Source: Hydractinia symbiolongicarpus
Taxonomy: Eukaryota; Cnidaria; Hydrozoa; Anthoathecata; Hydractiniidae
DNA length: 64,000 nt
Reading direction: 5' to 3'
Assembly (NCBI RefSeq): GCF_029227915.1
Contig: NC_079881.1
Span: 13,987,501 to 14,051,500 of the forward strand
The position numbers were made by a program, and so were the translations under genes. A model generated the notes under the pieces. That model was not told the DNA's origin, ran no database searches, and saw only the letters and a list, made by a program, of their open reading frames with translations. This document shows, piece after piece, positions 28,808 through 47,758 of this stretch (position 1 is the first letter of the stretch; the number at the start of each line of letters is the position of its first letter).

Positions 28808-29049
28808 TTTTGGTAATTTTTTTACTATCAAAGTTGAGACGATTGCTTGCTGCTCACCAAGGTCATTTAGACTTTGTTGACTCTCTCTTAGCACTGCTTT
28901 GCCCATGTCAAAGCAAAGACAAAGAAAAGACAAACACCCTTGTCCGCATATCAAAATACCAGCCAAATTATCGTAATCATGTATCATAATTATAACATGC
29001 ATCGCACAATGTATTCCGTTATTATTCCGTTATTATTGCAAAGAACAAT
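28808..29049. repeat. Second copy of the 22.1-kb repeat
   Basis: Nearly identical to about 22119-22348. The main difference is an extra CCGTTATTATT (tandem slip) near the right end. Flanks of the two copies are unrelated. Confidence 0.9.
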
Positions 29050-30134: not shown

Positions 30135-30450
30135 AATGCAAATAGCAGTTCTGAAAATAGAAGCCTGACCTTATTTATTATCGCTCCAGGGCAAATGTAT
30201 ACAGATTCACTCTACATTGACACGTAGTTAAATCAAATTTTTCGTAATTATCATGGATGTATGCCTAATATAAAGGGAATACCTAAAATCGGAAGCCTGA
30301 CCGTATTTATACCCTCAACCATTTTAAATTAAGGGCACTGACAATAAAAGCATTTCCAGATTTCCAAATTGCACAAAAGATATAGCCTGATCGAACAATT
30401 TTGGGTATCATTCAAAATGCGGCTATGTGAAATGTTTATAAAATTGATCC
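30135..30450. repeat. Dispersed repeat, copy B
   Basis: Partner of 18855-19320, same orientation, moderately diverged and shorter. Confidence 0.75.
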
Positions 30451-30773
30451 TAAAGACTGGACACATGTTGCAAAAAAAAAAATAAAAAAATTCCATGTTA
30501 AAGTGAGGTAGGATCGCCTAAGTAGAAATTGCCAATGAGAAGATCATGTGGATCTGAACTAGTAATCGGTTGAAAGAACGCATAATTTTATTATTGGCGT
30601 TTAATAAGGTTCCTGGCGCCCAGGAGTCGAGTTAAAATTTATCTCAACTACTCAAGAGTGTTTGACGAGGCTTAACTCTCTGGTTTCACGGTAGTCCAAC
30701 TACATTTTGCCGCAATTCGCCGATTGTTGCGCGACTCCTTGTTTTCTGCCGTAAAATAGTCGACTTCGGCGGC

Positions 30774-30893
30774 AGCCGAAGTGTGGACTTTGACCTTCTT
30801 AAACAAATAATTTTGATTTCAAGAAGAATCGCGCCGAAGTGTGGACTTTTGAAACGAAGAATATGTGACGTCAAGAAGAATCCCGCCGAAGTC
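30774..30893. repeat. Right arm(s) of the inverted repeat, duplicated
   Basis: Two head-to-tail units of about 58 bp (GCCGAAGTGTGGACTTT and onward to AAGAAGAATC-GCC). Each is inverse to 27199-27235. Confidence 0.7.
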
Positions 30894-31534
30894 GTCGAAA
30901 TTTACGGTAAAGAAAGATTGAAATTGGGTCATGGGTGCGTGCGGATAATTTACTCTACCTATTGTTATTGCCTCCCGGTAGCCGGTCGGTTTGATAGGGT
31001 CGAATTCAACATGTCTAAAGGCTAAGGAAGTTTTGTATTGACTTGCAACAAGTAAATGGAAGGCTTGAATATATGATTGCGGAATGAAGTTGAGCAATGT
31101 TGCTGAGAAGAAACATTACCGGAACACATTTATTCTCTGTGATTGCAGAAGAAAGCAGTTTTGCAAAAAAAAAACAGACTTTTTGAGTTAACAAAATCAT
31201 AGCATTAACTTTAATGACAACGTTTTCAGGTACATCTGTTTACTTTTAATTCCATTGATTTTTGAGCTTTCTATTGCTGTGCTAGCAAGTGTGAGCATGA
31301 AACTGTTTATAGTTTCACTTTCAACAAATCTAAAAGCCCTGTGTCAAATTCAAAGTTCTTGTGTTGTCTTGGGTTACCCACAAGTAACAAGACATTGGAT
31401 AGCAATACAATAAATCGAATAGCTGCATAACAACTTTGTGTGTTTACTTTGTAGATTCAAAGCTTCTGGCAATAGACACTTTTTAAACGATTTCTTAACA
31501 TGCCACAAGGCCACAGACGAGAACACAATCCTTA
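30894..31534. other. No gene seen; left flank of the Polinton
   Basis: I looked here for the left terminal inverted repeat of the Polinton and could not match it to sequence right of 44.9 kb. Confidence 0.4.
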
Positions 31535-31554
31535 GTTGGTTATTATAATAAAGG

Positions 31555-32153
31555 ATGTTCAAATTCTATAACGACTCCGTGGAGACAAGAGATTTTCATA
31601 GCGAGCCAACTGTGCTCGATATTGACGAGGTTCAAATTGAGAATATCGTACTTAGTGATCCAATTAAATCCAACAAAGGCAAAGATGCTAGATATGTTAT
31701 AGGCTATAAACATGGTAGCAAGATATCGTCATTATTGATCATAACGTCAAAGGGGCTGTATTCAAACGGTGCATCCAGATACGATGATGGATACTCCCTT
31801 ACAATGTCATTTGATATGTATAACCATCCTGATTGGCTGGAAAAGTACAAGTGTATCCTAGCCAGGATTGAGAAACTATATGGTAGTGAGTTCACGACCT
31901 CATCAGTGAAGAACGGTAGATACCTGAACACAAAAATTAAAGAATAGGATGGAAAAATAAACACGTATTTCTACGATCTTCCAATACCTATGCGACAACC
32001 ATGTTCCTGTATCTGTATACTAAAAATATCCAGCTGGGGAATAAGCATTACCCGCAAGTCTTGCTTGAGGAGTGTAAATACAAGCCTGTTCAACAACCCT
32101 TAAGGACACATCTTATTGTTTCAGATGACGAGAACTCGTTCGTTGTAGTGTAA
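31555..32153 (+). pseudogene. Polinton protein of unknown function
   Basis: The frame from ATG 31555 runs 130 codons to a stop at 31945-31947. The same frame continues readable (DGKINTYFYDLP), then shifts near 31990-32000 into YTKNIQLGNKHYPQ and LLEECKYK, ending in TAA at 32151-32153. One gene with a nonsense codon and a frameshift explains this best. It is the first plus-strand gene; ATAATAAAGG lies directly before the ATG. The LEECKYK-type ending is familiar from other Polinton hypothetical proteins. A nucleic-acid-binding role is possible but not shown. The TAA stop overlaps the AATAAA of the next gene. Confidence 0.6.
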
Positions 32154-32158
32154 TAAAC

Positions 32159-32412
32159 ATGAACGATCTGAAAAGAGACGCAAAGTCGTTGGGTACTAAG
32201 GGTTATTCAACCCTCAAGAGAGTTGATCTTCTCGCTGCGATTCATAAGGTAAAATATAAAGGCCTCATTGCAAGCCATGTCTAGAAATCACAGCTATAAA
32301 AATTTTAGAGCAATATATCAGAGGCCTCGAGACAAAACAGAAACGAACCATTATATATGAAGGTGACCTAATGATTGATGCAACTACCGGCGAAGTACTT
32401 GGTACCATCTAA
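32159..32412 (+). pseudogene. Small SAP-domain protein, frameshifted
   Basis: Starts MNDLKRDAKSLGTKGYSTLK and RVDLLAAI, a SAP-like helix-extended-loop-helix of about 30 residues (putative DNA binding). After 42 codons the frame ends. The reading continues in another frame from about 32297 (AIKILEQYIRGL) to TAA at 32410-32412. AATAAAC precedes the ATG with one base between hexamer and ATG. The stop lies inside the hairpin at 32407-32435. A related SAP segment begins the polymerase gene. Confidence 0.65.
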
Positions 32413-32435
32413 TTTGTTAATGAAACAAATTAGAT
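32407..32435. terminator. Hairpin between convergent genes (12-bp stem)
   Basis: ATCTAATTTGTT pairs perfectly with AACAAATTAGAT across an AATGA loop. It contains the stop codon of the SAP gene and lies between it and the end of the minus-strand gene 32536-32918. Confidence 0.8.
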
Positions 32436-32535
32436 TATGAATATTTAGGCGGTTCATCTAGGTATTTTTTACATAATGAGCAGATTGCAAGTTTTTTAAC
32501 AGTTCTTCTCTGGCTTCCTGTCTTCCCTGAGCGAC

Positions 32536-32918
32536 TTATTGATGCCTTTCTTGATTGTTAATCGTTTCCACAATCTCTTTAGTACGCTGGCGGATTTGCT
32601 CTTTCAATAGGAGATATCTTTGCTTCTCTTGCATAATAAGGGTAAATTCGTAGTTACTAATCACTCCATTCTCGATGCCTTTCGAAATCAAATCGACAAT
32701 ACTATTCAGCTTCGTTTCCGCTAATAATCTTATACTATCATGCTTTTGTGTTTATAATTCAGCTTCTTCCCACCTTGTTTTAAAGCAGTCTGCCCCAATC
32801 CAACGGCAATGCTGATACCTCCCATCGCGACGGATAGAGGAGCTCCGATGCCGCTGAGCATACTAGCGATACCTACGCCTGATGTTATCAGGCTTATGGC
32901 GAGCAATCCGTGGTCCAT
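32536..32918 (-). pseudogene. Polinton membrane protein with Gly-rich hydrophobic core, frameshifted
   Basis: From ATG 32918: MDHGLLAISLITSGVGIAS, followed by a second Ala/Gly/Ile-rich hydrophobic segment (GGISIAVGLGQTAL), then a polar helix. A one-base shift in the A-run near 32745 moves the reading into HDSIRLLAETKLNSIVDL, continuing as EYNGV/EFTLIMQEKQRY-like sequence to TAA at 32536-32538. The two-part layout, hydrophobic N half and alpha-helical C half, is common among Polinton and Polinton-derived hypothetical proteins in invertebrates. Possible membrane or particle component; function unknown. Its ATG is 3 bp from the ATG of the divergent gene at 32922. Confidence 0.65.
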
Positions 32919-32921
32919 ATA

Positions 32922-33704
32922 ATGGATCCATATAATGGATCCAGCTTTTCACAATACGATAACCGCTACTCCACCCCGGGGTATGCGCAGGTATGCCGTG
33001 AGTATGGTGCGGATCCCAACGCTTTATACAAGTTCAAAACCCTGACGTCATCGTTGTCGAGTGGTAGATGGTGGCCGCAGGTTGATGGGGATTGGGCCAA
33101 AGTCATCATCCCGAAAAGTCAAGGTCTGACATCAGAGGGCGTGACAAAATTGGGTGAAAGTATACGCGTCTATGTTGTCTTATTGCTAGGATCTCAAGCG
33201 AGTGCAAAGGCACCAATTCTAGGCTCTAATGCCGATAACTATACAGCAAGGCAAATATTATTGCAGAAATTCGAGGCCATGGTTCAACGCGACGAGAACG
33301 TAGGTCAAGACATCACCGAGTTTCAAAAGGTGTTACAGTACGCACGAACTCCATTAAATTTCGTCGTCATCTCCAGCGTCTACATGCTTCCTTCAAACAT
33401 GGATCTTCGCATTGGAAAAATTGTGGGGTATAATAACAACGTTCTAATAGCGCTCCCTAACATAGGTGTCGGTGTGGAGCTAGATCTGAATACCAAAGCT
33501 GTCAAGCATGATGCATCCTTCACTGCACCTTTTAGACAACATATCAAGAAAACCACGCCTGATACCAAGGAAGCCCACAGGCAGCATGATATACCCCTCC
33601 ATCCACCATCCTCTAAGGAAGCTGCTGTTCACGAGTATACCAAAGCCACGCTGGTTACGGTAGGAGTAGGACTTATCCTCGCTTTCATCTGGATGAACAA
33701 ATAG
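32922..33704 (+). CDS. Polinton protein with C-terminal membrane anchor, intact
   Basis: An uninterrupted frame of 260 codons starting MDPYNGSSFSQYDNR. The first ATG in frame is at 32922; the frame opens a little earlier without an ATG. Most of the protein is soluble (RWWPQVDGDWAKVIIP near residue 50). A Pro/His-rich linker and a single C-terminal hydrophobic segment, ATLVTVGVGLILAFIWM, follow, and it ends in NK. The layout suggests a tail-anchored protein facing the particle or cytosol. No domain recognised. Uninterrupted while most Polinton genes here are broken. It is followed by the hairpin at 33706. Confidence 0.7.
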   Translation: MDPYNGSSFSQYDNRYSTPGYAQVCREYGADPNALYKFKTLTSSLSSGRWWPQVDGDWAKVIIPKSQGLTSEGVTKLGESIRVYVVLLLGSQASAKAPILGSNADNYTARQILLQKFEAMVQRDENVGQDITEFQKVLQYARTPLNFVVISSVYMLPSNMDLRIGKIVGYNNNVLIALPNIGVGVELDLNTKAVKHDASFTAPFRQHIKKTTPDTKEAHRQHDIPLHPPSSKEAAVHEYTKATLVTVGVGLILAFIWMNK

Positions 33705-33705
33705 G

Positions 33706-33731
33706 TCTAGTATGTTTTTTAAAATACTAGA
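33706..33731. terminator. Hairpin between convergent genes
   Basis: TCTAGTAT and ATACTAGA form the outer stem; T- and A-runs can extend it with one bulged G. It begins 2 bp after the TAG of the upstream gene and ends 5 bp before the end of the convergent gene. Confidence 0.75.
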
Positions 33732-33735
33732 TTTT

Positions 33736-35027
33736 TCATCGATTCTTACTCCTTCCCTTACTTACATACGCAACAACAATACCCACAGCAATCGAGATGG
33801 CCAAATACAGATGTCTCGCCATATATTCCACGACTTTGGCAGCGACTCTAAAGTAATATGATAAGATGGTACCGATGATCCCAGGAAGAGCTGCCCCATC
33901 TTAACCAGCAAGGTACTTCAGGAATTTTCCCAACCTCTCCAGCTGCTTTTGAACAAACCCTTTGCTACCACCACTTCCTCCACCTGCTGCCCCACTACCT
34001 CCCGTGAGTGCTAGGACCAGGGTGGATATCATTACGCCAACAGTCGAAATAACGCTGGCGATAGTCAGGCCTTGTTCCTTGAACAAAATGGTCAATTTTT
34101 CTCGTAAGGATGTGTCATCCCCAGCGATCTTCATGAGGGTCTCCTTAATTGCCCTCAGCTGGCTATGGATACTTGATGTTAGTAAACCATGGGCTTCTTT
34201 GACAGCCTCCCTCTGATCGCGTAGTCTCTCCAGTTCATCCTTCGCCCTGGTAATGTCTCGATCCCAGATGTCTAACTGCTCCCTTGATACTCCAAGTGTG
34301 GCTCTTTTGCTATTGAGCCTTTTAATCTTGGCCTCTGCTTTGGCGATTTCACTTTCATGGAATATAATTCTACTTTTTAAATTTTTCAAGTTTCCACGTA
34401 AAGTTTGAAGCTCGCGGTTAAGCCCCCGTCTTTCGCGTTCATCGAATACATCCCCGCCAAAGAAAGTATCCTCCATGAGGCTCTTCGCATCATCTAGAAC
34501 ATTCTCTAGTAGCGGCAGCATCCCGATTTCCCAAGGGTTGTTATCGACCGTATCAATATCATTCAGAAGTTTTGAGCTCTCATTTTACTGCCTTTGTTGG
34601 GTGTAACATAGTCGGCAAAACCTAAGGCCTTCAGACGCGTAGGTCCTAAGGCCGTCTCTATAGCTGTAATAGCTCTTAACTCACCGGTCGCAGTCGTAAG
34701 CGCTATCTCTTTATATTCTTTACTCCCCAGCGTAACCGCCCTAAAAACAAGCTTTTTACCTTCATATAAATGATAATTTTTATCGGTTGACAGCTTTAAT
34801 CCTAAATGCTCGCTAAGTTTAGCATAAAGATCGTCGACGGTTTCCTCTAAATTCTGTTCCCCAATCCCAACATCCAATCGCCTACGCGCACCTCTCTGCT
34901 GTTGTCCTGGCGTTAGGCTGACATCAGGCTCGGGCCGAAGGATCTCGCTTTCGCTACTAAACTCCTCGGCTTCGTCTTGAATATCTTCCTCTGGCGTAAA
35001 GTCATCTTCGTATCCTGGATTATCCAT
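33736..35027 (-). pseudogene. Polinton coiled-coil/transmembrane protein (PX-like), broken
   Basis: Starts MDNPGYEDDFTPEED at 35027 with an acidic, disordered N terminus. A globular part (about 70-150) ends at a stop near 34563. The next frame continues NDIDTVDNNPWEIGMLPLL, then a long charged coiled coil (34200-34450), then TIASVISTVGVMISTLVLAL (membrane), a Gly/Ser linker and LGKFLKYLAG. An in-frame TAA at 33901 is followed by readable DGAALPGIIGTILSYYF and a second membrane segment to TGA at 33736. I read this as one gene of about 430 residues with one frameshift and one nonsense change. The same architecture is frequent in cnidarian and fish Polintons. Likely structural, role unproven. 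Confidence 0.7.
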
Positions 35028-35062
35028 AGTTTATTTCAACCCATGCACCGATATAAATAAAC
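35028..35062. promoter_or_regulatory. 35-bp bidirectional start region
   Basis: Only 35 bp separate the start codons of two divergent genes. Leftward, GAAATAAACT abuts the minus-strand ATG; rightward, TATAAATAAAC abuts the plus-strand ATG. The AATAAAC word is thus present once for each gene in mirror orientation. Confidence 0.7.
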
Positions 35063-36343
35063 ATGTCTAACATATTCGGAAATGAGCTAAATCCTAATAG
35101 GGAAATCAAGACTATGTTTTCTATGAAAGGCAAGAGGCAAAGGGTAAAAATCAGCCACGTGCCGTCTACCATTGGTGCCAATGAAGATTTTTACGTGGAT
35201 CTTCCTAATATGGGGGAAAATAACGTGTTATTTCCCGGCTCAATCAAGTTGCTTTTCGACCTCGAGCTGACTGGTACGAATACTAAACGAACTATAGTCT
35301 CTAATATCGGCAAAGCATTGAAACGAGGCTTACGGATTACGCTGAATGCTAACGAAATTCAGAATATCGCCGACTACGATGTATTAAGTGTGTACAAAGA
35401 CCTGTGGATTTCAAAATTCAATAGAGAGAATAACTTAATTTTGAAAGGGATTAATCCTAATGATGGTACAATTAGAGCTCTTCAGGTAGGGGCGTCTGAC
35501 CATGTTGGAACAAATGAAGAGCGTGCCATAGCCGCAGCGTATGGAAAGACCTTCGCAATACCTCTTGGCTCCATGTTCGAACTCACGAGGGATCTCCCAT
35601 TCTACCAACATGGCCTACACGATAGACTTAAATTTGTGATTCACTTCGCTTCATATGGTGACGTTATAAAGGATGCCGGAACCCCAGCGGCAGGCTCAAC
35701 AGTCGCGAAGGCAGCCGATTCTTCCTACAAAATAACAAATATTTGTTTGCAATTCGACAAGGTGACAAACGAAGAGCTCGCAAGTGCGATGATGTCGAGA
35801 TACTCGAGATTGGCTCTACCATACGAGCGTATACTTAGGAGCAAAGTGGTGACCATAAAAAAGGATTCCACCTCCTACAATCTACAACTCGATACGCCAA
35901 GCAAGAGCCTTAAAGGTGTCCTACTGCTATTTAAAGATATCAATGCAGATAAGCCATATTCTGGAAATAATGAGAAATTTTATAATCCAAAGATCGAGAG
36001 GATCTCTATTACCGTGGAAGGTGAGCTCTCGGTTTTATACTCCCATGGCATGATGCAAAGAGATCATCTGGAACAAATAGTTGAACTGTTCGAATGCCAC
36101 GATAGTGAAGTCACGATAGGCCAATATCTAACGGAACGATATGCATTATTCATTGATTTCAGATCAACACCTGATCACAGCTTACATGGTTCTGGGCGGC
36201 GCCTGGAAAGGTTATCGGACGGTATAACCCTCCACATCACGAAAAAAGCCGACGGTACAGGTGATATTAGATGCTATGTGTATCTCTTGATGGACGCGCA
36301 ATTGAATATCCTCGACGGTCGTTTTCATTCAGTAGAATATTAA
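35063..36343 (+). CDS. Candidate Polinton major capsid protein (double jelly-roll), intact
   Basis: Intact frame of 426 codons. It is beta-rich and has the features I know from Polinton capsid proteins. An N-terminal strand-rich part has LLFDLELTGTNTKRTIVSNI. The middle reads IADYDVLSVYKDLWISK, and LPFYQHGLHDRLKFVIHF follows later. The C-terminal half has LKGVLLLFKDIN and NPKIERISITVEG. The double-jelly-roll fold forms the icosahedral shell in related viruses; the fold here is inferred, not computed. Polinton capsid genes are often longer (about 500-650), so a penton-type or divergent capsid is the alternative. AATAAAC lies one base before the ATG. The small membrane gene follows 23 bp downstream. 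Confidence 0.65.
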   Translation: MSNIFGNELNPNREIKTMFSMKGKRQRVKISHVPSTIGANEDFYVDLPNMGENNVLFPGSIKLLFDLELTGTNTKRTIVSNIGKALKRGLRITLNANEIQNIADYDVLSVYKDLWISKFNRENNLILKGINPNDGTIRALQVGASDHVGTNEERAIAAAYGKTFAIPLGSMFELTRDLPFYQHGLHDRLKFVIHFASYGDVIKDAGTPAAGSTVAKAADSSYKITNICLQFDKVTNEELASAMMSRYSRLALPYERILRSKVVTIKKDSTSYNLQLDTPSKSLKGVLLLFKDINADKPYSGNNEKFYNPKIERISITVEGELSVLYSHGMMQRDHLEQIVELFECHDSEVTIGQYLTERYALFIDFRSTPDHSLHGSGRRLERLSDGITLHITKKADGTGDIRCYVYLLMDAQLNILDGRFHSVEY

Positions 36344-36366
36344 GAGCATTAAAAATTGTATTATAA

Positions 36367-36765
36367 ATGGCAAGCATTATGGTACTCGCAGGTGGAGCAA
36401 TAATTAATGCTCTCATGTTCTCGGGAAGCAATTACCTATTTTCAAAATTAAGTGGCCACGGTGAAGCGGAAAGGAAGCGGCATGATTTAGCGGTGGAGAA
36501 ATTACAAGCCGCTCAGACGCAGTGGGTGCGGGATCGTCAAGCAAAAATAGACTGGTATAACCGACGTCGGGAGGAACAGCGGGAGGCAGGGCAAAGTCTC
36601 AAAGAGCTCGACGAAAGTATGAGACAGTACTATATTGCGACGATCGAGAAAGCTCCAAAGCTCTCTGATTTTTATATACCCAGCAAACAGCAACAAGACG
36701 GTGTACTGACGTTCATTCTTAGCTCCTTAGCCCTTTTGGGGTTCGTGGCGTACAAGTATATGTAA
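36367..36765 (+). CDS. Small Polinton protein with two membrane segments, intact
   Basis: 132 codons. An N-terminal hydrophobic segment (MVLAGGAIINALMF) is followed by a charged helix rich in Arg/Gln/Glu (residues 35-85) and the conserved-looking LSDFYIPS. A C-terminal hydrophobic segment (LTFILSSLALLGFVAYKYM) completes it. Homologues directly after the capsid gene are common in cnidarian Polintons. A role in the particle or an internal membrane is plausible but unproven. The start context is TATTATAA-ATG, a weak form of the AATAAA signal. Confidence 0.75.
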   Translation: MASIMVLAGGAIINALMFSGSNYLFSKLSGHGEAERKRHDLAVEKLQAAQTQWVRDRQAKIDWYNRRREEQREAGQSLKELDESMRQYYIATIEKAPKLSDFYIPSKQQQDGVLTFILSSLALLGFVAYKYM

Positions 36766-36789
36766 TAACATTTTCGATATGTAATAAAT

Positions 36790-37800
36790 ATGTCAAAAGC
36801 AAAGCATGTTGTTACTCCAGAAGAAGCAAAAAAAATTAAGCAACATCTATTACCAACCGGAACATCTCTGGACTGGATGAAAAGCCATTAAGATACTCGC
36901 TGAAAGTTCAGGTCTATCAAAAAAGAAAATAATTCACTGGCTTAGTCGTCAGTTGCTCTGGTTAAGGCATATCAAAGGGCCTAAGCGCATTAATTATCCC
37001 CATTTCACTGTTACGAGGCCTAATCAAATCCACCAATTCGACCTTTTGTACATGCCCCATGACAAGCTGTATAATAATACGTACAAGTATATCCTCACAG
37101 GTATCGATGTTGCATCGCGCTTCAAGGTACCTCGGCCGTTACGTAGCAAGAAAGCCAATGAAGTTGCCGACATGCTGAGGGATATTTACAAAGCCGGACC
37201 TCTGCGTTATCTAAAGACTTTTTTTAATGCGATAATGGTAGTGAGTTCAAGTCGGATGTAACGAAGTTGCTGGAGGGTAAAGGGGTGGAGATTAAACGGG
37301 CTACCACAAAATACCAACATACATTTACAGCCTTCGTGGAGTCCTACAACAAAGTACTAGCACAAAAGCTATTCAAGCCCCAAGATGCGCAGGAGCTGGT
37401 CAGTGACGAACAAAGTAGTACCTGGGTCAAGCACCTGTACAATATCGTGAAAAGCATGAATAATTTCAGGACGGCTATGATAGATATGAAACCTTCAAAA
37501 GCAATTAAGCTTGATGACGTACCCCTTGCGAAAAGCGAGGAATATCCCGAGGAAAAGCCTTTGCCTAATGATGGACTTTATTTGTACTTACTGCAACCTG
37601 GTGAGGAACATGGGGATGCTCGGAGACGCGCTACGGATACTTGGTGGAGTAAGAAAACGTACAGGCTGGATCGGATCGTAACTGGTACGAGCTTTTTATA
37701 CTATTTGGAAGATGGGCCTGATCGAAGTTTCGTATCAGAGGAATTGATGCTAGTACCCGAGGGTGCTGAGGTACCGCCAGAATATGTTAAAAATTGGTAG
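36790..37800 (+). pseudogene. Polinton RVE integrase with chromo-like tail, broken
   Basis: Catalyses insertion of Polinton DNA in intact relatives. The N-terminal piece (MSKAKHVVTPEEAKKIKQ) stops at about 36889. The frame then changes to SSGLSKKKIIHWLSRQLLW (helical, zinc-binding-like region). The catalytic core follows with QFDLLYMP (first Asp) and TGIDVASRF. A frameshift near 37222 lies just before CDNGSEF (second Asp), and the core resumes with FVESYNK (Glu). All three acidic residues are still encoded. The C-terminal part has LYLLQPGEE and YYLEDGPDRSFVSEEL, a chromo/SH3-like segment. AATAAAT lies one base before the ATG. At least two frameshifts; not functional as one protein. Confidence 0.9.
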
Positions 37801-37808
37801 TATATATA

Positions 37809-37836
37809 TTTTTGTGGCTCATATGAGCTACAAAAA
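37809..37836. terminator. 28-bp near-perfect palindrome between convergent genes
   Basis: TTTTTGTGGCTCAT followed by its inverse with a single mismatch. It fills the 40-bp gap between the integrase stop and the end of the BRO gene. Confidence 0.82.
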
Positions 37837-37840
37837 CACC

Positions 37841-38633
37841 TTATGACATATCGATATCATACAACTCTTCGAATAACTCGCGCGTGACGTCATCTGGTAA
37901 ACTAAAATGATTTCGCCATCAATTCTCTATCCCAAGATTATCATCCCTGAACCTATTTCATGTATGTACGGCGTTTGGATCATCGCATATTGGATGTCTC
38001 TCGATGATATTAGGATACATCTCCCGTAGGGTGCGGAGCTGATCACTTAGAGATCTCCGTCAGCAACGAATAATGTAATGAGGGTGTTGGCCCTTTTTTC
38101 CACATTCATTAGAATCATTTTTATCAATAACACATAGTACATTATCGTATGGATAACCATTGGGAACGTACCGATCACGAAGCTCCGCATTTTCCAATGT
38201 TCGTAGATAGAGCTGTTTTCTCGCTCTTGAAGGTCATCGTTAAGCATCGCCAGGGCATTATCTCTCTCCTCGATGTATTGACGATGTAGTTGCTCACGGA
38301 TTTTTGGGAACATTGTATTGCAGCAATATTTTCTGAACCTTTTTGCTTTAGGCTGCTGGCTTCCAAACAACAACTCGTACATACCCTCTTCATTGATGTA
38401 GATGTCGTCTTTTCTCGAGTCCAAGGCCATTTTACCAAGTCCTCCGTAGCGGGGGACTTGCTCAATTGATACTTGTGAGCGTAATTTTCCAGGCTACAAT
38501 GGTTGCGGATTGTATCGGAGGTGTCCTTTCTATATTCTAATGCCTGGACTACTTCCTTAGCCCGAATCCAAGGGCGGTCGTTGATAGTTACGATATGTAG
38601 CTGGATATTATTAAATTCAACAAGCGAGGACAT
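37841..38633 (-). pseudogene. BRO-N domain protein, broken
   Basis: The N terminus VEFNNIQLHIVTINDRPWIR and AKEVVQALEYRKDTSDTIRN is a BRO-N domain, the DNA-binding domain of baculovirus-repeated-ORF proteins, also common in Polintons. Near 38440 the frame shifts into EGMYELLFGSQQPKAKRFR, continuing the domain. A polar helical middle follows, then breaks near 38150-38050. Readable C-terminal pieces (LREMYPNIIERHP, ELFEELYDIDMS) extend to TAA at 37841-37843. At least three breaks. BRO proteins bind DNA and are thought to modulate viral or host transcription; the role in Polintons is unknown. AATAAAA precedes the ATG by one base. Confidence 0.82.
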
Positions 38634-38662
38634 TTTTATTTAAATAATACTTCAACCAGGGT

Positions 38663-38830
38663 TCATATCATTAGGACAGATATGAAAAAATACTTGGTAT
38701 TCCTTTCCCCTTCTAATGTATCCCTTAGCTCTTCATCAAGAGCCTCTAATTGAGATTCCAGATAGGGTATTTTGTCCATTTCTTTATAACATTTTTCCAA
38801 TTGCTTTTCTAAGGTTTTGATATATGACAT
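38663..38830 (-). CDS. Small coiled-coil protein
   Basis: 55 codons from ATG 38830: MSYIKTLEKQLEKCYKEMDK and onward, a charged coiled coil over residues 5-45 with a short hydrophobic end (FFISVLMI). I chose this start, not the longer frame, because AATAAAT stands one base before it. It lies 2 bp from the ATPase stop, and the AATAAA overlaps that stop. Function unknown. Confidence 0.55.
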   Translation of the reverse strand: MSYIKTLEKQLEKCYKEMDKIPYLESQLEALDEELRDTLEGERNTKYFFISVLMI

Positions 38831-38832
38831 AT

Positions 38833-39366
38833 TTATTCTAGAACACTCCAGCCCCGAGGATGCTCGAGACGTATAAACAAACACGTGTGTTTTGATTTTT
38901 TTAGTTGAGCTTTAATTGTATCCCAATTGTCTATCAGGTTGGTTTCTTCATCGATCAGCTTCATATCAGATCGTTCACTAGGGTACCACATAAACAGCTG
39001 CTTTTTTTGACGTCTCAAATTTTTAGGCAAAGCGGTATAACTCTGAGTTAGGAGCCAGAGGTTGTGCCGACGATGTCTCCCAGAGATTGCGAGCTCAAGT
39101 AAGGGTTGCTTTTTTTATCGAGAGATTCATCAGCGATGATGTAAATTATCACCTGGATCAATAAGAAATACATAAGGATCTTTCCAAAGCGATGGTCTAT
39201 CGAGATAAGTCTTGTTCCACCGCAAGGTGGGACACAAAATTATGATGTTTTGGAAATGGTGTCGGTACTGATCCTCCAAAAGATCGAGAACACGCTGCGT
39301 CTTGCCACACGAGGTAGGTCCTGTAAATATTGTCGTGCATGGATCTCTAACAATATCAAGAGTCAT
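38833..39366 (-). pseudogene. FtsK/HerA-type (A32-like) packaging ATPase, frameshifted
   Basis: From ATG 39366 (MTLDIVRDP): Walker A GPTSCGKTQ near residue 20, then a beta strand IIILCPTL. A frameshift near 39130 follows. The reading resumes with the Walker B-like IIADESLDKK, then ELAISGRHRRHNLWLLTQSY (sensor region with Gln) and PKNLRRQKKQLFMWYP, ending HPRGWSVLE at 38833. This family pumps DNA into preformed capsids in related viruses. The start with AATAAA-ATG is preferred over the longer frame from 39408, which crosses a hairpin. One frameshift seen. Confidence 0.88.
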
Positions 39367-39373
39367 TTTATTC

Positions 39374-39400
39374 TTCGTATATACCCGTGGTATATACGAA
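39374..39400. terminator. 12-bp perfect hairpin downstream of gene 39413-39655
   Basis: TTCGTATATACC pairs with GGTATATACGAA over a CGT loop. It lies 12 bp after the stop of the upstream minus-strand gene and 7 bp before the ATPase start. Confidence 0.78.
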
Positions 39401-39412
39401 ATTTGCATGTGC

Positions 39413-39655
39413 TTACTTAGGTGGCATCATGGAACGCTTATACCAGCTTTGTTTAATGGCATAGTCATCAAATAGGATCGCTCCTGTCATATATCCAGCG
39501 AGCTTTAGTCCATCCTCTAGATCCATCTTCGCACCTGGTCGAGAAACGCCTAATGCTTTTTTGGCACCCAGTGCCAAGACGATTGTATATGAAACTAGTC
39601 TGACAGACTCCCATAAAGAATCTATAACCTCTTTCCGATATTCTTTACTTCTCAT
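39413..39655 (-). CDS. Small Polinton membrane protein
   Basis: 80 codons. Amphipathic N terminus (MRSKEYRKEVIDSLWESV), a hydrophobic stretch (VSYTIVLALGAKKALGV), then GLKLAGYMTGAILFDDYAIK. Small proteins ending in a Lys-Leu-Ala-Gly hydrophobic segment plus an acidic-Tyr motif recur in Polintons. AATAAAGC immediately precedes the ATG. Intact. Function unknown; a capsid or membrane component is a guess. Confidence 0.6.
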   Translation of the reverse strand: MRSKEYRKEVIDSLWESVRLVSYTIVLALGAKKALGVSRPGAKMDLEDGLKLAGYMTGAILFDDYAIKQSWYKRSMMPPK

Positions 39656-39777
39656 GCTTTATTATAGGGCTCATCGCATATGAAACACATCAATATCAGG
39701 CTTTGAAGTTTTTTATTGAACGTTGGTGCATGTGTTTCAGGAAGCTGCTGGGTACATGCGGGTCTCTTACGGAAAAG

Positions 39778-39999
39778 CTAGTAGGCACCTCCAATACATG
39801 CGATTATTGCAATAATACCTCCACCAATGTATACACTTCCCATGGACTTGGAGGAACCTGCAGCAGGTTTCTGACCCTCCGGCAAAGTACCTTTGACCAT
39901 GTTCTTTTTGTTGCGATTCCATTCCGCAAGTCTCTTACCAGCAGCAACACGTCCTTCGTTTTTCTTGGTAATTACTTGGTTAGTATTGTCTTCACTCAT
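39778..39999 (-). CDS. Small basic protein with C-terminal membrane segment
   Basis: 73 codons. A polar basic N part (RVAAGKRLAEWNRNKKN), a Pro/Ser linker and a C-terminal hydrophobic segment SVYIGGGIIAIIACIGGAY. Starts GAATAA-ATG, with the hexamer overlapping the start codon. Tail-anchored basic proteins of this size recur in Polintons. Intact. 10-bp inverted words TGAAACACAT/ATGTGTTTCA with a 39-nt loop lie downstream (39681-39739). Confidence 0.6.
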   Translation of the reverse strand: MSEDNTNQVITKKNEGRVAAGKRLAEWNRNKKNMVKGTLPEGQKPAAGSSKSMGSVYIGGGIIAIIACIGGAY

Positions 40000-40014
40000 T
40001 TATTCTGAGACATA

Positions 40015-40432
40015 TCAGTTGCCCTTTGACATATTCTCCTCCGCCCACATAGATTGCGTATTGGCGTAGTGCAGCCTTTTTGCTACCTCATCAAGCGATG
40101 GGACATTTCCATTTTCTCGATAATGTAGCCGGATTTTGTGGTCAATATGCCACTCTCCATAATTGTTCCATGTCATGCCCTCGGAAAACTGGGCTTCAAT
40201 ATGGGCCCGCAGTATAGCCATGTCGCACCCGACATATTTCTCGGAACTGAGCTCTTTATTTCCCTTTTTCCCTGGATCTTATCTTTTTATGATGGCATTT
40301 GTTTCGTTCCTTTGTCGCCTTCAAACGGTTGAGGCATTTTATACACCATTTTGTCCATTCGCCATCCCATTGGATCTTAAAATTATCCAAAGAAAGATAG
40401 TGCCTACATCTCGAGCATTTCTTGGTATCCAT
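40015..40432 (-). pseudogene. Zinc-finger/HNH-like nuclease, one frameshift
   Basis: From ATG 40432: MDTKKCSRCRHYLSLDNF then WCIKCLNRLK, a four-cysteine zinc ribbon. A basic linker follows, and a one-base shift in the A/G run near 40263. The last part reads NNYGEWHIDHKIRLHY and ANTQSMWAEEN, an HNH-like core (His-Ile-Asp-His with Asn further on). Such proteins, a Cys4 finger plus an HNH-like domain, are frequent in large DNA viruses and homing-type elements. The start lacks the AATAAA signal (context GTTAAC-ATG). Confidence 0.7.
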
Positions 40433-40438
40433 GTTAAC

Positions 40439-40466
40439 TCATGTTTACTCCTAGGAGTAAACATGA
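40439..40466. terminator. 28-bp perfect palindrome
   Basis: The half-site TCATGTTTACTCCT is followed by its exact inverse with no spacer. It lies 12 bp after the stop of the minus-strand gene ending at 40479 and 6 bp before the HNH-like start. Confidence 0.8.
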
Positions 40467-40478
40467 CTTGTGGACAGT

Positions 40479-40992
40479 TCAGTGCTTATTTAGACTGCTA
40501 CACGCGCTGCTCATCTTTTCTTTCTCTTCATCAACCTGCTCTTCACCACTCTTGGACGTTGAGATCTTAGTATGATTTATCGTGTGCGCCGCAACGAGCA
40601 AAGGCGCAAGGAACTTACCAAAGGCTGTATAGACGAGGATTCCAAGATCAGTCATGCTCTCCCTGATATTAGGATCGCTTTCTAAGTCATAATGAAGAGC
40701 CTCGGGACTATCGAGCGGCATAAGGTTACCGATAGCTTTGCTATATAGCCCAAGGGCGTGAGTTGACAATGCCTTTGCAGTCTTCTCTCCTTTCTCATGG
40801 AGTTCCTTTTCAACAAATTCAGCGTATATTTTTGATAACCTCAGGTGATGCTTTGTCCAGGAATGCCTCAGTACATTTTTTAGGCAGTAAGTGTGGCTTG
40901 GTCTTACGGATGTCTTTCAGGATTTGGCGTTTGTCTGTAGGTTGATCAACAGCCTCTGCTGGAGTATCGAAAATATCAACGAGATTTGACAT
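40479..40992 (-). pseudogene. Polinton protein of unknown function, one frameshift
   Basis: Begins MSNLVDIFDTPAEAVDQPTD at 40992, preceded by AATAAAG. Reads QILKDIRKTKPHLLPK and CTEAFLDKASPEV, then shifts near 40825 into FVEKELHEKGEKTAKALSTH. A hydrophobic ILVYTAFGKFLAPLLVAAH segment and a Lys/Glu-rich tail follow. About 170 residues. No family recognised. The same frame extends upstream into the tiny membrane gene at 41076 without a stop. Confidence 0.6.
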
Positions 40993-41076
40993 CTTTATTA
41001 TTACCCGTCTATATTTCAAATAACCGAGGATGATTAAAATATATGGGAGCAATATAGCGATAAATAGCAATTCCAT
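40993..41076 (-). CDS. Tiny membrane peptide, now fused in frame to the next gene
   Basis: MELLFIAILLPYILIILGYL followed by KYRR, about 24-28 residues with one membrane helix. It has its own AATAAAA signal one base before the ATG. It runs into the next gene because the bases CGGGTAATAATAAAG carry no stop in this frame; with one G fewer they would give stop codons at once. I infer an original separate mini-gene. Confidence 0.45.
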
Positions 41077-41087
41077 TTTTATTTCTT

Positions 41088-44000
41088 CTATCGGTAATGT
41101 CCCCTAGCCAGTGTGGTGATCTGATCCGCTTGTACGATCCTTTTGTCATCAGCTCTATTTAACGCGATTTTTGTGACTTCCTGCGTGTATATATTGTGAC
41201 CTTTGTTATTAATACACCTCCATGTTGTGTTTACATTGATACCTTCTTCAAACATCGCTGGTAGTCCTCGAAGGGTATACAATTGGTGACAGCTTTTTTA
41301 CACCCTTTGCTTTGCGATCTCCACCGTCTTTCGTGAGACTCTTGTATGCGTAGGCCTTAGGTCTCACAGTTATAAAGGAAGTCATGATCCTACCGCCTAG
41401 CTCATCCTTCATCAAGCCGACGACTTTCTTGTTCTTGCCAATGGGCAGGGGCCTATTGTCATTCTTGTCATAAGCACTCGTGTCAAAATGTGCCTCCACA
41501 TTATCGGCAACATCCCGATAAAAATCCTCTGTTCGGATGTGGTAAATAAAGCTGTCCGTGTCCATGTAACAGAGTTTAAGCTTGCTACCATACTTTGGCT
41601 GCATATAGTCGTATTGGAACTCGTACATAACGTACTTGGAGAGATCTATAATAGCTTGACCAATATATACGGGCTTATTCATCTTAATACCCGTTCTGAC
41701 CATCTCAATACCCATGAGATTCTTACCAAAGCATGTGCCGCTCTTAAAGTTTGGTTGCATTGTAAGCTTCGTATATGAGGCTTCATTCGTGACTAGCTTA
41801 ATATTGCGGTGATTGCGGATATTCTCCATCGTCTTTCCAAAGACCTAGAGGTTCATCAATTTGTAAAAGTCCTTCTCAAAGTCGTTCTTGGCGGCAGTTC
41901 TCAGCTTCGTGTTATGGTCTATATATGGCTTAAGCCATGCAGTATGTTTGAATTGTATAGCGCGGTGTACTTCCTTAAGCTCGAGCCCATGTTTCAGGGC
42001 TTGGTGAAGAGCCCCGATGTGTACCACGTATTTCCGCTTATGTTCGAGATTGAGTATCAATTTCTCGACCCTGTGGATCATCTTGCGCTCCGGTAGGAAG
42101 GGGAGCTCGTTATGTGTATCATGTAGGCTCTTTGGGTAGTCGACGTCAACTTCCAAGATATAGCCGTGCTTATTGTCAGCGACGAGTTTATCGATCTTCT
42201 TTTCATCGATTACCTCTATATTCGACACCCATTTGAAGCAATGAGTGGGTAGAGGCTGTTGCATGGCCCAGCCATAGAGATTGTTGGTGTCAAGGTACTG
42301 TAGGTAACTAGACTCAACATCCGGGTCGTATTGGTCTCCCATATATTTGTTGTTCGCCCTCGCGTACCGGTGTACAGACTGCGTAATACCCCCTCGTATT
42401 GCTCGTTCGAAGAGGATTAACATATCTGGATCAGTTAGGAGCTCCAGCTTGATTTCTGTGTACTTGAGTGCTGCTTTCCACGCTAGACCTGGTGCACTGT
42501 AGAAGTGAGCGGGGTCGAACTTGTAGTTCTCCTGGCACACTCTCCGAAAGCTTTGGAAGATGTCAGTCAATAGCAGGACATTCGTCACTAAATACGCATC
42601 ATGATAATCGCCCATGGTAGTTTCATCATCTTTTGGATTGATGACATTCCACACTTTTTGAGCGTGCTCGTATTCTTCATCGCTAATCCCCTTTATATTC
42701 AACTTGCTATAGGTGGTAGTAGCTCTGGTGGTAGCTCAGTCTCCTCGAATCGTCGCTAGCTATCCATATACTCATAGAGATATACACCCTTCCTTCGCAT
42801 AAGATGAAATGTATCCTCCTCAGGAAAATATCATCGGAGATGTTTGCACTGTTCATCATCAAGATTACTTGCCAATTTTTCTAATGAGGATGCCATAAAT
42901 CTACAGCTGTCTATGAACCTGATCTCAACCTTTTTATACGTTTCGCCGTCGCCATGCCCCATGCCTGCAATGGGTACGTTGATTTTTACATTGAACGATA
43001 TATACTTCTGGGTGTTTTCAGCGATACAACCGATATCCTGAGTATCATATTTTTCGCCCAATTCGCGAATGAACAAGTGGGCGTCATTGCCACTTAAATT
43101 GTGAAATATCACAGGTACGTGATTGGGAATCTTATACTTGATGTTGCATGTGTTATAGGCCGGACCCCTGTATAATCCGGAATAGTGACAGTGGTCCCTT
43201 ACTTTGCGATTTTTATCGCTGAACGACTTCATACATATGTGGCAAGTCTCCGCAGCATCATATGAATTCTTCTGCTTCTCCGTCAGTTCCGTCATAGGCT
43301 TCTGTGGGAAGGTAGCGTACAGCCGTTCTATCTCGTCTTCCAGGTGGTTGACAAATCGGGTTACACAGTCCTCGCCCCTGTATACTGTTAGAGGGTCCGG
43401 CACTTCTCCAGATGCAAAGGTACTGTATGTAGCCCAGCCGCATGGTTCATGTTTGCTCAGACTCTTGGTCTTAGTATCCCGAGCATTCTCTTTCATCGGC
43501 ATCAGCAAGCTTTCAAAGTCTGCGTATATCACGAACGGAACCATAAATTGCTGCTGACCATCCTGGTAGTATAGCCATTTTTCCTTCTCGCTTGCCATCG
43601 TAATCTTTACCGCTTCGTTGTCTTTGCAGTAGGCATAGTGGTTATCGCGGGATTCTATTGTTTGGAAAACCTGCAGGCAATTCAGACAGAAATGCATTTT
43701 CCCATGATTCTTCGATATCTCACGTCCTAGTAGTCTTGATAGATTTTTGATGGATACGTAATGGTTCCTCTCCTCATCGGTAAGTAGTAGTAGATTAACC
43801 TGAGTATCCGTTTCGTTAAATGCTGATCGCCGTAAGATATTAAAATTTTTACCTGTTACATACAGAACGTTCACGACAATGTTGGGATTGTTACGTTCAA
43901 ATTTTGTGATGTCCTTGATACTAGTAGGGAATTCTATACCATCCCAATTATACCGCTCCTCATATGGTCGAAGCTTGCTTATTCTCTGATGGTTTGTACC

Positions 44001-44912
44001 TATCTCTTCGTGATGTATGGCGGCGATAATTGACCATTTAAAGCACTCATCATCATCATTAATAGGGTTGATGATGGCTTTTTTCATCGAGATCCATTTT
44101 GGTGTTTCGATATATGATGAGCCTCGAGTCAGCTTAAGCTTTTGAAAGTCCACATCAAGATGCTGGATGCGACCTATACTAAACCCAGATTTGGGTAATA
44201 CGGATTTTCGATATGTGTTTTCATTTGTGCAAACATCGTATCCATAATTTCATCTATGATGGTTCCTTGAAATATTGATGTCATATTGCTATGAAAAACC
44301 TTATCAACCTCAATAAACTCGTTAGTACCATCGATTGATTTTTTCCATAGGATCCAGAGGGAGCATTGGATTTTCGCAGATCCCATTTCTTCCATTTGGT
44401 TTTCGATGAGTGTTTTTACACTTGATCTAACCATATCTAAGTACCCATTAATGTCTGTTCCATCTATGCCATATATACAATAACTCTTGAATGTCTTGTG
44501 TAAAGCATGCTTGTGTTGTTGAGGCGTAAAATCTTGCTTTGGTTGCTCTGAAGCATGATCTTCCCTCGCTTCTTCCTCGACCTTGCCAACCAGGGTCTTC
44601 TTGGCATCATCATATAGTGAAAGTATTCGTGATTTTATCGATGTATATATACTTTGCACTGGTTTCTTTATACTTTTCGGTACATGTGATAGTAACCACT
44701 CTGACCATTCTCGCAGCTTATTTTTGACTACTGAACGAGTTCTCTTCAGCTCCTGACGTTCAAACTCGTTCATTTCCTCAAACGTGGGAACGTAAGGCTT
44801 TATGTTCTTCTTAAGAAATAAGGTCTGCTTTGCGTAATTTTGAATAACCCGTAAGCCCACGGTTTTTCGCGATGACGTGTAATTGTTTTACGGTATTTGA
44901 ATTTAAATCCAT
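41088..44912 (-). pseudogene. Protein-primed DNA polymerase B of the Polinton, multiply broken
   Basis: Starts with a SAP-like segment (MDLNSNTVKQLHVIAK) at 44912, preceded by AATAAAGGAG. A shift near 44830 leads into a basic linker and a domain ending near 44174. A second shift enters the exonuclease part with YADFES (Exo I), HNLSGNDAHLF (Exo II) and a Cys2 pair/His zinc-like cluster (CLNCL, CHICM..HCHYSG). Next are breaks around 42840-42700, then the palm motif DTNNLYGWAM. An in-frame TAG at 41845 replaces a residue of the KLMN..VFGKT motif. YMDTDSF (catalytic Asp pair) follows, and a shift near 41280 precedes the end (IALNRADDKRI, LARGHY). At least five breaks over about 1,275 codons. It replicates linear genomes from a protein primer in intact relatives. 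Confidence 0.93.
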
Positions 44913-45010
44913 CTCCTTTATTATATATTTAATTTCAATCAGCAAAATTTCTAGCACGGTCATATTTTTTGAGTAAGGAAATTTCCCTTTACTCATACTC
45001 TGTATAATAG

Positions 45011-46322
45011 AATATCTATGCTATTGCGCATGACGTCATATGATTTCGTTTATATAATTTAATATTATATGCGCTAGTATTTAATATATCTATCATTTAA
45101 TATTATTTTGTGTTACTTATTGGCATAATCGGGAATTTCCCTTTGGTCGACGTCGTCTGTGCCAGAAAGAACATTTCTCTATCTCTAATTTTGCCATTTT
45201 TATTTTTTTTATCTGTTGTTGTTTATGGTGTACTATGATCTAATAATACAAATAAAGCCTATTTACAATGCAGTTTGTGTTGTTGTTGTTGCTTGTCTCT
45301 CTATCTGTCTCCTTTTTTATGTGATTAAATGCTTTAAATAGATTAAATATGAATGTTTTGCATGTCTTTTACAGAATCTAGTTTCTCCATATTGGCCCCA
45401 AAGCTATTATATTCACCCATAACTTACGAAAACAAGCCTGCAAATATTTTTCTGGATGTGGAAAAAAGAAGTTTTTCTGCCTAGCTAAGTATAGTCTAAT
45501 TCTTTGAAAACATTTGGCTGTAATTGAAAAATGTATTATAAGATTGCAAAGTGAAAACGCGAGGCCAAAATTTTATGCAGATACAGTTTACCATGTACAG
45601 GTTGGAGCAGGATCGTATCATGATCGTTTATCGCGGGGAATGAACATAAACAACACTGTACATAACATAACGAGTTATCATAATGGCAACCTGGCTACAA
45701 GGTTACTTGTATAAAAGCCATAATGGATCTAGGGTGGTTAAAAAGTGACAGTTTCTGGGCTCCTAACATGATGATATAATATATAAAATGAAACAAACCG
45801 ACCTGGCTACATGCAATATCTGTCCTGAAGAAATATCCGAAGGTTTCTCCAGGCACCAGAGGTACATGATCCAAAATTTGCTACAGTCATTGGATGCGCT
45901 GCCATTATAGTAATTGAAGCCAAAAGATAGAGTTGATATTAGTAGGTTGCAGTGATAGATGCTTCTTGAAAACGTGGAGCTAGCTTAAAATAATTTCAGT
46001 TAAGCAAGTTATTGCTACTACTGGTGAGAAGCTAAATCAGAGGAACTCTCTCCTAGCTATATATTGATTGGCTAACTTAGAACCTCCTAATATGGATAGA
46101 CTATACCCAAACCTTTAGTCCCCTACTCTAAAGTATCAACAACAAGAAAGTTGCTTCAAGTTATGACACATAGCTTTGATTTGGTTAATTGAGACAAAGA
46201 TGCCTTGGGTGAGCAAGACAACCTTGTGTACCCTTTCTGATGCATCTGCATAGCAACTATCAAGTATTGGCAACTGCAATTAACATGAGCTAAACTGTGT
46301 TTAGCTCCATATAGAGCCTCAC
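45011..46322. other. No gene seen; right flank of Polinton and 5' part of the DIRS element
   Basis: AT-rich and poor in coding signal. It contains TGTTGTTGTTGTTGC near 45275. No match to the left flank of the Polinton in inverted orientation was found. Confidence 0.4.
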
Positions 46323-47758
46323 ATGTGCACAGCTGACCAGTGGGCATCCATGGGGAAAGAAGCACTACCTCTCCTCGCAAACTCGCTAAACATACATACA
46401 AAAGGGAAAGCCATCCCAGAAATTATACAACTTTTAATGGCCCATTTTGAGTCCTCCAACCCGCCAGTTGAAGACGGTGGTGTCCCAGAAAGTCATGGGA
46501 AAACACACGTGTCATCCGACGAGGCTGACGTAAGCAGCAATGCCTCTGGCAATGAAGTACGTCAGTTACACAAAAACTTAGCAAGTAGAGTGACCAAATC
46601 ATCCAAAAAGCGCCTATCGTTCAAAAAGGACAATTTTGAAAGTTTAAAAAAGGACTTATATATTCGACTTTGTGAGAACAGAAATTAACAGCCAAGTAGA
46701 GGCAAACCACAAATTTTATTCAACAGGGCACGTCGTCTGGGCAGCGCCAACCCGCGCTATCTTTGTTGTCTTCTCGCTCTAGCCTTCAGCCCGCCGGTTC
46801 ATTGGACCCTGTTTCTATCCATGTTGACATGGATATGGCGGCGCTGGCTGAGGATGCCCCACTGATAGTCACCGAGCCCAATGAGGCTCCTTTTTCTTCT
46901 GGTGTTTTTTCCGCGGAATTTCCTTTGTCATCCCTCCCTGCTGTTCCTAAGGCTGTTCTTGATAAAATTAAGCTATTGGAGTACGTCAATCTAGACTTAT
47001 TCCTGCCCCCTTCCTTAAACTCGGTTTCCCTACCAGAAGGTGAGTATGACTTAAACATATGGACGGCAGCTGCCGTTCCACAAATTTCTTTAAGTAGGAA
47101 CACCGTAGGTAAGGCTAGGGTTAAGGATTTTTCCTCCTGGTGGCTAGCATGGAGTAACTACTTACGTTGTCTTCTCTATTTTTTCCCGCACCTTGCGTCT
47201 GAATTGGTTACCTACCAGGCACTCATTGCTCAATTTGCCAACCAATACATGTTCCCAGCTGTATGTGCTTTTGACCGACTGCATCTGTTGCAACTGGCAA
47301 ACGATCCTTCTCGTCGATGGGACCAACTAGATGACCTGCTTGTTATCCAGCACCTGCGGGAGGCTCCTGCATTACCTAAACTGCCTTCTTACTCCGCTTC
47401 CACACGCACCACTTATTCCTGTTTTTCTTGTGGTCAGAGGGGACATTTTTCTTATGATTGCCCTAGGAAGGTTTCCCATGGTATACGCAGTGGTGGATCT
47501 GAGTCGTTTCGGAATGCTTCCCACCAGAATGTCTCAGGAGGTTCCTACCAAAGGGTCAGGTTGTCACCTTGTATGTCACCTGGCTTTCGACCCCCTGCTG
47601 GAGGTTCAAGAAAGGCTTACTCTGCGGGAACAACTGCCCCTTCACACACAAATGCAAAGCATGTTTCAAAAGTCACCCAGAAACTCGCTGTTCATTCCGG
47701 CCCTCTCAACCAAGTGCCAAGTAATTTTTTCCTAAGTTTTCAGTGCATACTCCTGTAA
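46323..47758 (+). pseudogene. DIRS gag-like region
   Basis: A first frame (46323-46688) encodes a helical, Lys-rich protein of about 120 residues. A second (46763-47758, 331 codons) has a helical domain with WWLAWSNYLRCL (about 128-140) and FANQYMFPAVCAFDRLH. It ends with a CCHC knuckle CFSCGQRGHFSYDC (about residue 217). Between the two frames stops interrupt, so whether gag was one protein is unclear. Knuckle-type gag binds the genomic RNA. Confidence 0.75.

Follow-up and report, generated by a model that had tools for sequence, protein, structure and literature searches.

AATAAA abuts start codons in a Hydractinia Polinton, its genomic copies and its relatives: a candidate initiator for leaderless mRNAs

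We examined a 64,000-nt stretch of the Hydractinia symbiolongicarpus genome (contig NC_079881.1, positions 13,987,501 to 14,051,500; hereafter the window), in which the segment at 31.5-45.0 kb is, to judge from its sequence, a partly decayed Polinton. Within this element the hexamer AATAAA stands directly against start codons on both strands; it persists there in copies elsewhere in the genome despite changes in the spacer and in the distance to the ATG, and it is present in distant relatives. We consider it probable that this box, with the ATG at -1 to 4 nt, is a core promoter or initiator that gives rise to leaderless or nearly leaderless mRNAs.

Results

AATAAA runs into start codons of the element

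Sites were defined as AATAAA followed by ATG at a gap of -1 to 4 nt, on both strands of positions 31300-45100. A first-pass annotation of this DNA had listed 13 starts of this kind, and all 13 sites are present: in 12 of them a full AATAAA ends 0-4 nt before the ATG, and at 39999(-), which reads AATAAATG, the hexamer overlaps it. In the element 13 of 20 AATAAA run into an ATG, compared to 24 of 148 in the rest of the window. Ranked against every hexamer found 4 or more times in the element, AATAAA was the most start-biased (13/20 where the base rate is 0.126; p 6.5e-8; runner-up p 4e-5). Counted over all ATGs, the motif is found at 13/588 in the element (2.2%) versus 26/1774 in the rest of the window (1.5%), and the 13 ATGs that bear it in the element are exactly the 13 starts listed earlier; the excess concerns which ATGs bear AATAAA more than the plain rate. 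Among open reading frames (ORFs) of at least 60 aa taken from their first ATG, the motif is present at 7/29 in the element versus 1/64 outside. The sites are as follows:

31547..31552, plus strand: AATAAA, 2 nt before ATG 31555
32152..32157, plus strand: AATAAA, 1 nt before ATG 32159
35056..35061, plus strand: AATAAA, 1 nt before ATG 35063, start of the presumed major capsid gene; kept in copies
35030..35035, minus strand: AATAAA, 2 nt before ATG 35027; mirror image of the motif at the capsid gene; kept in copies
35028..35062, no strand: putative divergent promoter of 35 bp between both ATGs, with two mirrored AATAAA
36357..36366, plus strand: TGTATTATAA, a motif variant private to the window, directly before ATG 36367
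36783..36788, plus strand: AATAAA, 1 nt before ATG 36790 of the integrase gene
38635..38640, minus strand: AATAAA, 1 nt before ATG 38633, Bro-N protein
38832..38837, minus strand: AATAAA, 1 nt before ATG 38830; same in copy L117
39367..39372, minus strand: AATAAA, directly before ATG 39366, packaging ATPase; same start and AATAAA in copies L114-L117
39658..39663, minus strand: AATAAA, 2 nt before ATG 39655; AATAAATG in L114-L116, TATAATATAAATG in L117
39999..40004, minus strand: AATAAATG, overlapping ATG 39999; same in L114-L116
40994..40999, minus strand: AATAAA, 1 nt before ATG 40992, an internal start of the ORF that begins at 41076
41078..41083, minus strand: AATAAA, 1 nt before ATG 41076
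44917..44922, minus strand: AATAAA, 4 nt before ATG 44912, 5' end of PolB

The sites themselves stand as listed, but they do not mark 13 separate gene starts. The ATGs at 41076 and 40992 lie in a common reading frame and are two starts of a single ORF, and the ORFs of 39366, 40992 and 44912 each contain an earlier ATG; the choice of 39366 as the ATPase start is backed by the copies. ORF 40819-41076 thus has two AATAAA-ATG starts 84 nt apart, an arrangement like that of PolB described below, and possibly gives two protein forms.

The box is kept in copies of the same genome

A search with the putative capsid protein scored 98 matches among 2,492 candidates, with identities of 70-84% excluding the window's own. 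In the first 30 capsid loci AATAAA abuts the capsid start in 29, and the remaining locus, L032, has TATAAA; L042 and L051 have GTG and ACG, respectively, at the start codon, with AATAAA present in both. A further 20 loci, drawn from the least similar (70-74% identity), keep AATAAA in 17; L102 and L110 are without the capsid start region and L104 reads AGTAAA. L106 keeps AATAAA, with the capsid ATG changed to ATA. Where the ATG is intact it takes the form AATAAATG, AATAAACATG, AATAAATATG, AATAAAAATG or AATAAAGCATG, and the gap from hexamer to ATG is -1, 1 or 2: across copies the ATG shifts and the hexamer stays fixed.

The capsid gene is divergent from the gene starting at 35027(-). With a single search pattern that accepted AATAAA or TATAAA on the capsid side, both mirrored hexamers of this region were found in 45 of the 50 loci; the five misses were L099 and L113, in which the partner hexamer is altered or absent, and L102, L104 and L110. 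The spacer between the mirrored hexamers ranges from 9 to ~21 nt and occurs in 22 distinct versions with a mean pairwise identity of 56% (L033, L034 and L098 were matched via TATAAATAAA, by which their spacers come out 4 nt too short). The mirrored hexamers are therefore conserved and the intervening DNA much less so. The shortest distance between the divergent ATGs is 21 bp, in L112.

The gene that follows the capsid gene, at 36367 in the window, had been counted as an exception to the rule. The exception proved to be private to the window copy: AATAAA precedes the gene in 29/30 loci, and the window is the sole locus without it. In the stretch around the integrase start, an AATAAA-ATG was resolved in 24/30 loci.

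We sampled the cluster of small genes in four 2.6-kb pieces (L114-L117, the first two almost the same in sequence). An ATG follows the AATAAA of the gene strand in 6/6, 6/6, 5/5 and 2/3 cases, respectively, and in 7/9 in the window; none of four opposite-strand AATAAA is followed in this way. Two gene starts of L117 bear TATAAAA-ATG and TATAATATAA-ATG in place of AATAAA. At the PolB 5' ends of 12 other copies (L131-L142), 23 of 24 PolB-strand AATAAA run into ATG and the 24th into TTG. These ends contain two start modules 39-45 nt apart, which are mutually in frame in 8/12 copies, out of frame in L133-L135, and without the upstream ATG in L142. An inverted repeat of the type GTGACCC...GGGTCAC is seen just upstream of the PolB start modules in several copies. 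In six pieces from the left of the capsid gene, 5/5 AATAAA found run into ATG, all of them at a single gene of L143-L147, and L148 has none. This gene, of up to 222 aa and with the start AATAAATGG, lies on the minus strand near the left end and was not included in the earlier list.

Taking together 72 Polinton pieces (window and copies), with similar contexts clustered to lessen the relatedness among copies, 51 of 74 distinct AATAAA contexts lead to ATG versus 26 of 162 in the control (p 2.6e-15), which consisted of the rest of the window plus L091-L093, DNA in which no window-type Polinton gene was found. Other A5T1 hexamers in the same pieces run into ATG in 8/130 to 31/74 cases; the highest value belongs to AAATAA, which overlaps AATAAA. 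Alignment of 25 window and copy starts gave the shared box (T)(A)(T/A)AATAAA with a gap to ATG of -1 to 4. No conserved upstream core was seen in the 28 nt before the hexamer of these starts: only position -3 exceeds 0.45 bits, and beyond it the highest column is 0.31 bits, at -20.

A second abundant PolB set was observed in the same genome with the L030 PolB as query (L061-L090), many of its members with long open frames; no window-type genes were detected up to 1.5 kb from the part of PolB that matched.

The box recurs in relatives from elsewhere

Thirteen contigs encode a PolB 35-54% identical to that of the window, two from IMG/VR (L029, L030) and 11 others (L120-L130). The 11 are filed under bacterial or archaeal metagenome-assembled genomes, in whose bins they are probably eukaryotic or viral contamination. 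In searches of viral contigs, neither the capsid protein nor PolB as query yielded a confirmed relative. PolB DNA patterns gave 0 when strict and 26 stretches when looser, among which 2 contigs were PolB relatives; profile scans returned the same 2.

Starts in the relatives were taken from non-overlapping ORFs of at least 100 aa with an in-frame stop before the start and located away from the contig edge. Under this rule AATAAA lies at a gap of -1 to 4 for 14 of 51 starts and ranks first among hexamers, as it did in the element (p 5.2e-8). Farther upstream the rate is 1.6 per 6-nt bin, versus 14 at the start; counts in the eight bins that follow on the start bin are 1, 1, 2, 1, 6, 1, 2 and 1. 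For the 10 relatives with a GC content under 0.40 the count is 14/40 (p 3.3e-8), with AATAAA first here as well; seven relatives selected after the hits were visible, a selection that favours the result, gave p 2.7e-8. The PolB start of L123 reads AATAAAATG and falls outside the ORF rule. L030 and L120 each contain a pair of divergent starts separated by 25 bp and bearing mirrored AATAAA. TATAAA is seen instead of AATAAA in copy L032 and in relatives L030 and L120. The enrichment at this position that the first-pass annotation had proposed as a test in related Polintons was thus found both in the same-genome copies and in these more distant elements.

Genes of the element

PolB is not intact in the present copy, nor are some other frames. 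The recognisable part of PolB is:

41845..42615, minus strand: PolB fragment, gene broken in the window copy; positions 41848-42615 match PF03175 (Pfam; type B DNA polymerase, putatively protein-primed), E 5e-14

A retroviral-type integrase is identified through copy L035 (PF00665, E 9.7e-10), the window integrase itself reaching no more than a weak match to a transposase (phrog_8463, E 0.0019). Likewise, the A32-like packaging ATPase is identified through copy L114 (PF04665, Pox_A32, E 1.6e-8); the truncated ATPase frame of the window gave no match, and from 39366 it comprises 78 readable residues that include a GPTSCGKT segment and contain no further Met. The gene starting at 38633(-) encodes a Bro-N protein. 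ORF 35063-36343 is named the putative major capsid gene from its position. It has no Pfam or PHROG match, its best PDB match (E 0.23) is not significant, and its protein model is poor (pLDDT 38); a double jelly-roll major capsid protein is here a candidate identity. In the subset of element ORFs that was searched, none was recognised as an RNA polymerase gene. No pair of terminal inverted repeats of at least 20 nt bounds the element within 28500-48500, and the window copy may be truncated or decayed.

Palindromes at gene ends

With a stem score of at least 10 as threshold, the element contains four palindromes, each at or just after the stop of a gene or gene remnant, and the first 30 kb of the window contains one:

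32407..32435, no strand: palindrome overlapping the stop (32412) of the 32159 gene remnant
37809..37836, no strand: palindrome at a convergent junction, shortly past the stop of the integrase gene (37800)
39374..39400, no strand: palindrome between the stop of the 39655 gene and the ATPase AATAAA; a related palindrome lies at the same place in L117
40439..40466, no strand: palindrome shortly past the stop at 40479

Most gene ends examined are without one. At the convergent 33704/33901 junction (330 nt searched), a palindrome scoring at least 8 was found in 21/30 loci, in several differing sequences; the other nine loci, including the window, score at most 7.0, as do 24 control windows inside the capsid gene. 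In Mimiviridae, mRNA ends are set by hairpins, according to the portion of PMC4402537 available to us, and the palindromes at Polinton gene ends resemble these. As possible mRNA-end signals they are for now a lead, because the contigs of seven relatives hold just two palindromes scoring at least 10 in total.

Discussion

The initiator reading is favoured because it explains at once the position of the box, its orientation, the sliding ATG and the divergent regions of 21-35 bp. RNA synthesis would start inside or beside the box. Every gene would thereby be transcribed separately into an mRNA whose 5' leader is absent or nearly so, even where the gene begins a few nt past a preceding stop or lies only 21-35 bp from its divergent partner. 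Candidate readers of the box would be the host RNA polymerase II together with an element-encoded factor, or the polymerase of a helper virus. The earlier proposal of a shared promoter or initiator with short or leaderless 5' untranslated regions is accordingly retained as the best-fitting model, in which both the action of the box at the level of DNA and the leaderless mRNAs are what we infer from sequence.

Several observations weigh against this model. The starts at 32918 and 32922 are without the motif, as the first-pass annotation had said: copy L148 carries the same CATATAATG junction, and no AATAAA is present at this type of start in L143-L147. An AATAAA with no following ATG lies 8 nt past the stop, at 31947, of the gene that starts at 31555. 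In the relatives the motif is found at 0/11 starts of the GC-rich L125, L128 and L130, at 0/5 starts of the AT-rich L121, L123 and L127 under the ORF rule, and at only 2/9 starts of L029. In L029, TATATATA directly abuts the ATG at 7820(+) and 12589(-), PolB included, and this sister lineage may use another initiator. Finally, the within-genome copies are related to one another, so that raw counts overstate their independence.

Among the alternatives, it is unlikely, if somewhat less so than the others, that the box is a translation-start context, that is, an AAUAAA leader that aids ribosomes before the AUG, with promoters located elsewhere. The motif does sit at the ATG, and poly(A) leaders aid translation of some viral mRNAs (PMC7163114, in the part available). 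However, no fixed register of the Kozak type is seen, the gap running from -1 to 4 over 25 starts, and use as a Kozak context is unlikely because the register slides; the AATAAATG form even places T at -3. Moreover, the T within the hexamer persists where uninterrupted A-runs might have served, rearranged hexamers (AAAAAT and TAAAAA, for example) show a much smaller bias towards starts, and for the divergent pairs 21-35 bp apart the promoters would have to extend into the neighbour's coding sequence.

We regard as slightly less likely still that a helper large DNA virus supplies the RNA polymerase that reads the box, as happens with virophage promoters, and that the palindromes set gene ends. 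In favour, the box resembles the late initiators of poxviruses (TAAAT over the start site) and of African swine fever virus (ASFV; TATATA), as given in the accessible part of PMC5294985, and the four palindromes lie at or just past gene or remnant stops, compared to a single palindrome in the window's initial 30 kb. On the other hand, no helper is known for the Polinton family here, no RNA polymerase gene was recognised in the subset of ORFs tested, and only two palindromes of such strength occur in the contigs of the seven relatives. A more far-reaching reading, which we hold to be doubtful, is that Polintons possess a gene punctuation conserved over great distances and comparable to that of cytoplasmic large DNA viruses, made up of the ATG-fused initiator plus, in the Polinton family of the window, the palindromes at gene ends, because a helper-virus-type polymerase transcribes them or formerly did so; they would then be virophage-like. 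Virophage-like roles or origins of Polintons have been raised and are still open in the sections of PMC8097293 and PMC10328495 that we could consult.

It is improbable that AATAAA is the poly(A) signal of the preceding gene, brought to the next start by gene packing. Tandem genes do have the hexamer between one stop and the next ATG, where a double role in poly(A) addition and at the start is possible. In addition, 5/14 gene or fragment ends have AATAAA within 120 nt and a sixth has ATTAAA; in four of the five the start hexamer of the next gene is within reach, and the fifth, at 31947, stands alone, away from any start. Nevertheless, a sole poly(A) role is unlikely because the divergent starts 35027 and 35063 each bear their own motif and 8/14 ends, including the four convergent ones at 33704, 33901, 37800 and 38047, have neither AATAAA nor ATTAAA in 120 nt, in agreement with the earlier statement that the hexamer is not simply a poly(A) signal. 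Least probable of all is an ordinary RNA polymerase II TATA box with transcription starting ~30 nt downstream inside the annotated ORF: although TATAAA replaces AATAAA in the copies and relatives named above, the wider box resembles the TATA consensus TATAWAW, and the box at PolB ends is preceded, 39-45 nt upstream, by another (with ATG in 11/12 copies and TTG in the 12th), the start codons themselves are conserved among copies, and a start 30 nt inside would cost the ATPase its GPTSCGKT segment, with no later Met in the 78 residues.

We found no description of this motif in Polintons in the literature searched, nor, in the portions of that literature available, any description of Polinton transcript starts; the words 'upstream', 'transcription' and 'TATA' are absent from the text we had of a paper on vertebrate Mavericks (PMC8097293). 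A signal abutting the ATG predicts where transcript 5' ends lie, corrects gene starts (ATPase, PolB) and may help gene finding in decayed copies. It also makes the question of its reader testable with reporters of ~60 bp, and a shared start switch could help to reveal the machinery that reads Polintons.

Poxviruses encode their own RNA polymerase, whereas none was recognised in the Polinton ORFs tested, and in the Polinton the same box serves both PolB and the putative capsid gene. Like a late initiator of the poxvirus type, the Polinton motif abuts or overlaps the ATG, and the likeness to the late TAAAT(G/A) lies in an AT-rich box at the start: AATAAATG, present at many Polinton starts, contains TAAATG. 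The remaining comparisons draw on partial texts of the cited papers. In poxvirus late promoters a short AT-rich TAAAT element overlaps the transcription start, leaving no 5' untranslated region, and is accompanied by an upstream core of ~20 bp (PMC5294985); for the Polinton box no conserved upstream core was seen in the 28 nt examined.

Other systems share some of these features. In mavirus and endogenous mavirus-like elements, TCTA in AT-rich flanks recurs upstream of genes, likewise a recurring gene-upstream motif in an integrating, Polinton-related element (PMC8547959); TCTA, however, matches the late promoter of the giant virus CroV, and the Polinton family here has no known helper. Microsporidia have a conserved CCC motif within 15 bp of the start codon, similarly start-proximal, but it is C-rich, belongs to cellular genes and is accompanied by a separate TATA element near -27 (PMC2685015). 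ASFV late promoters are AT-rich, with TATATA at -1 to +5, at the start site (PMC5294985), and ASFV late genes have short AT-rich 5' leaders (PMC7163114). ASFV has its own polymerase and a different sequence, but the Polinton relative L029 has TATATATA-ATG at two starts. By analogy, we infer that the Polinton box works like the late TAAAT(G) initiator of poxviruses and the TATATA initiator of ASFV.

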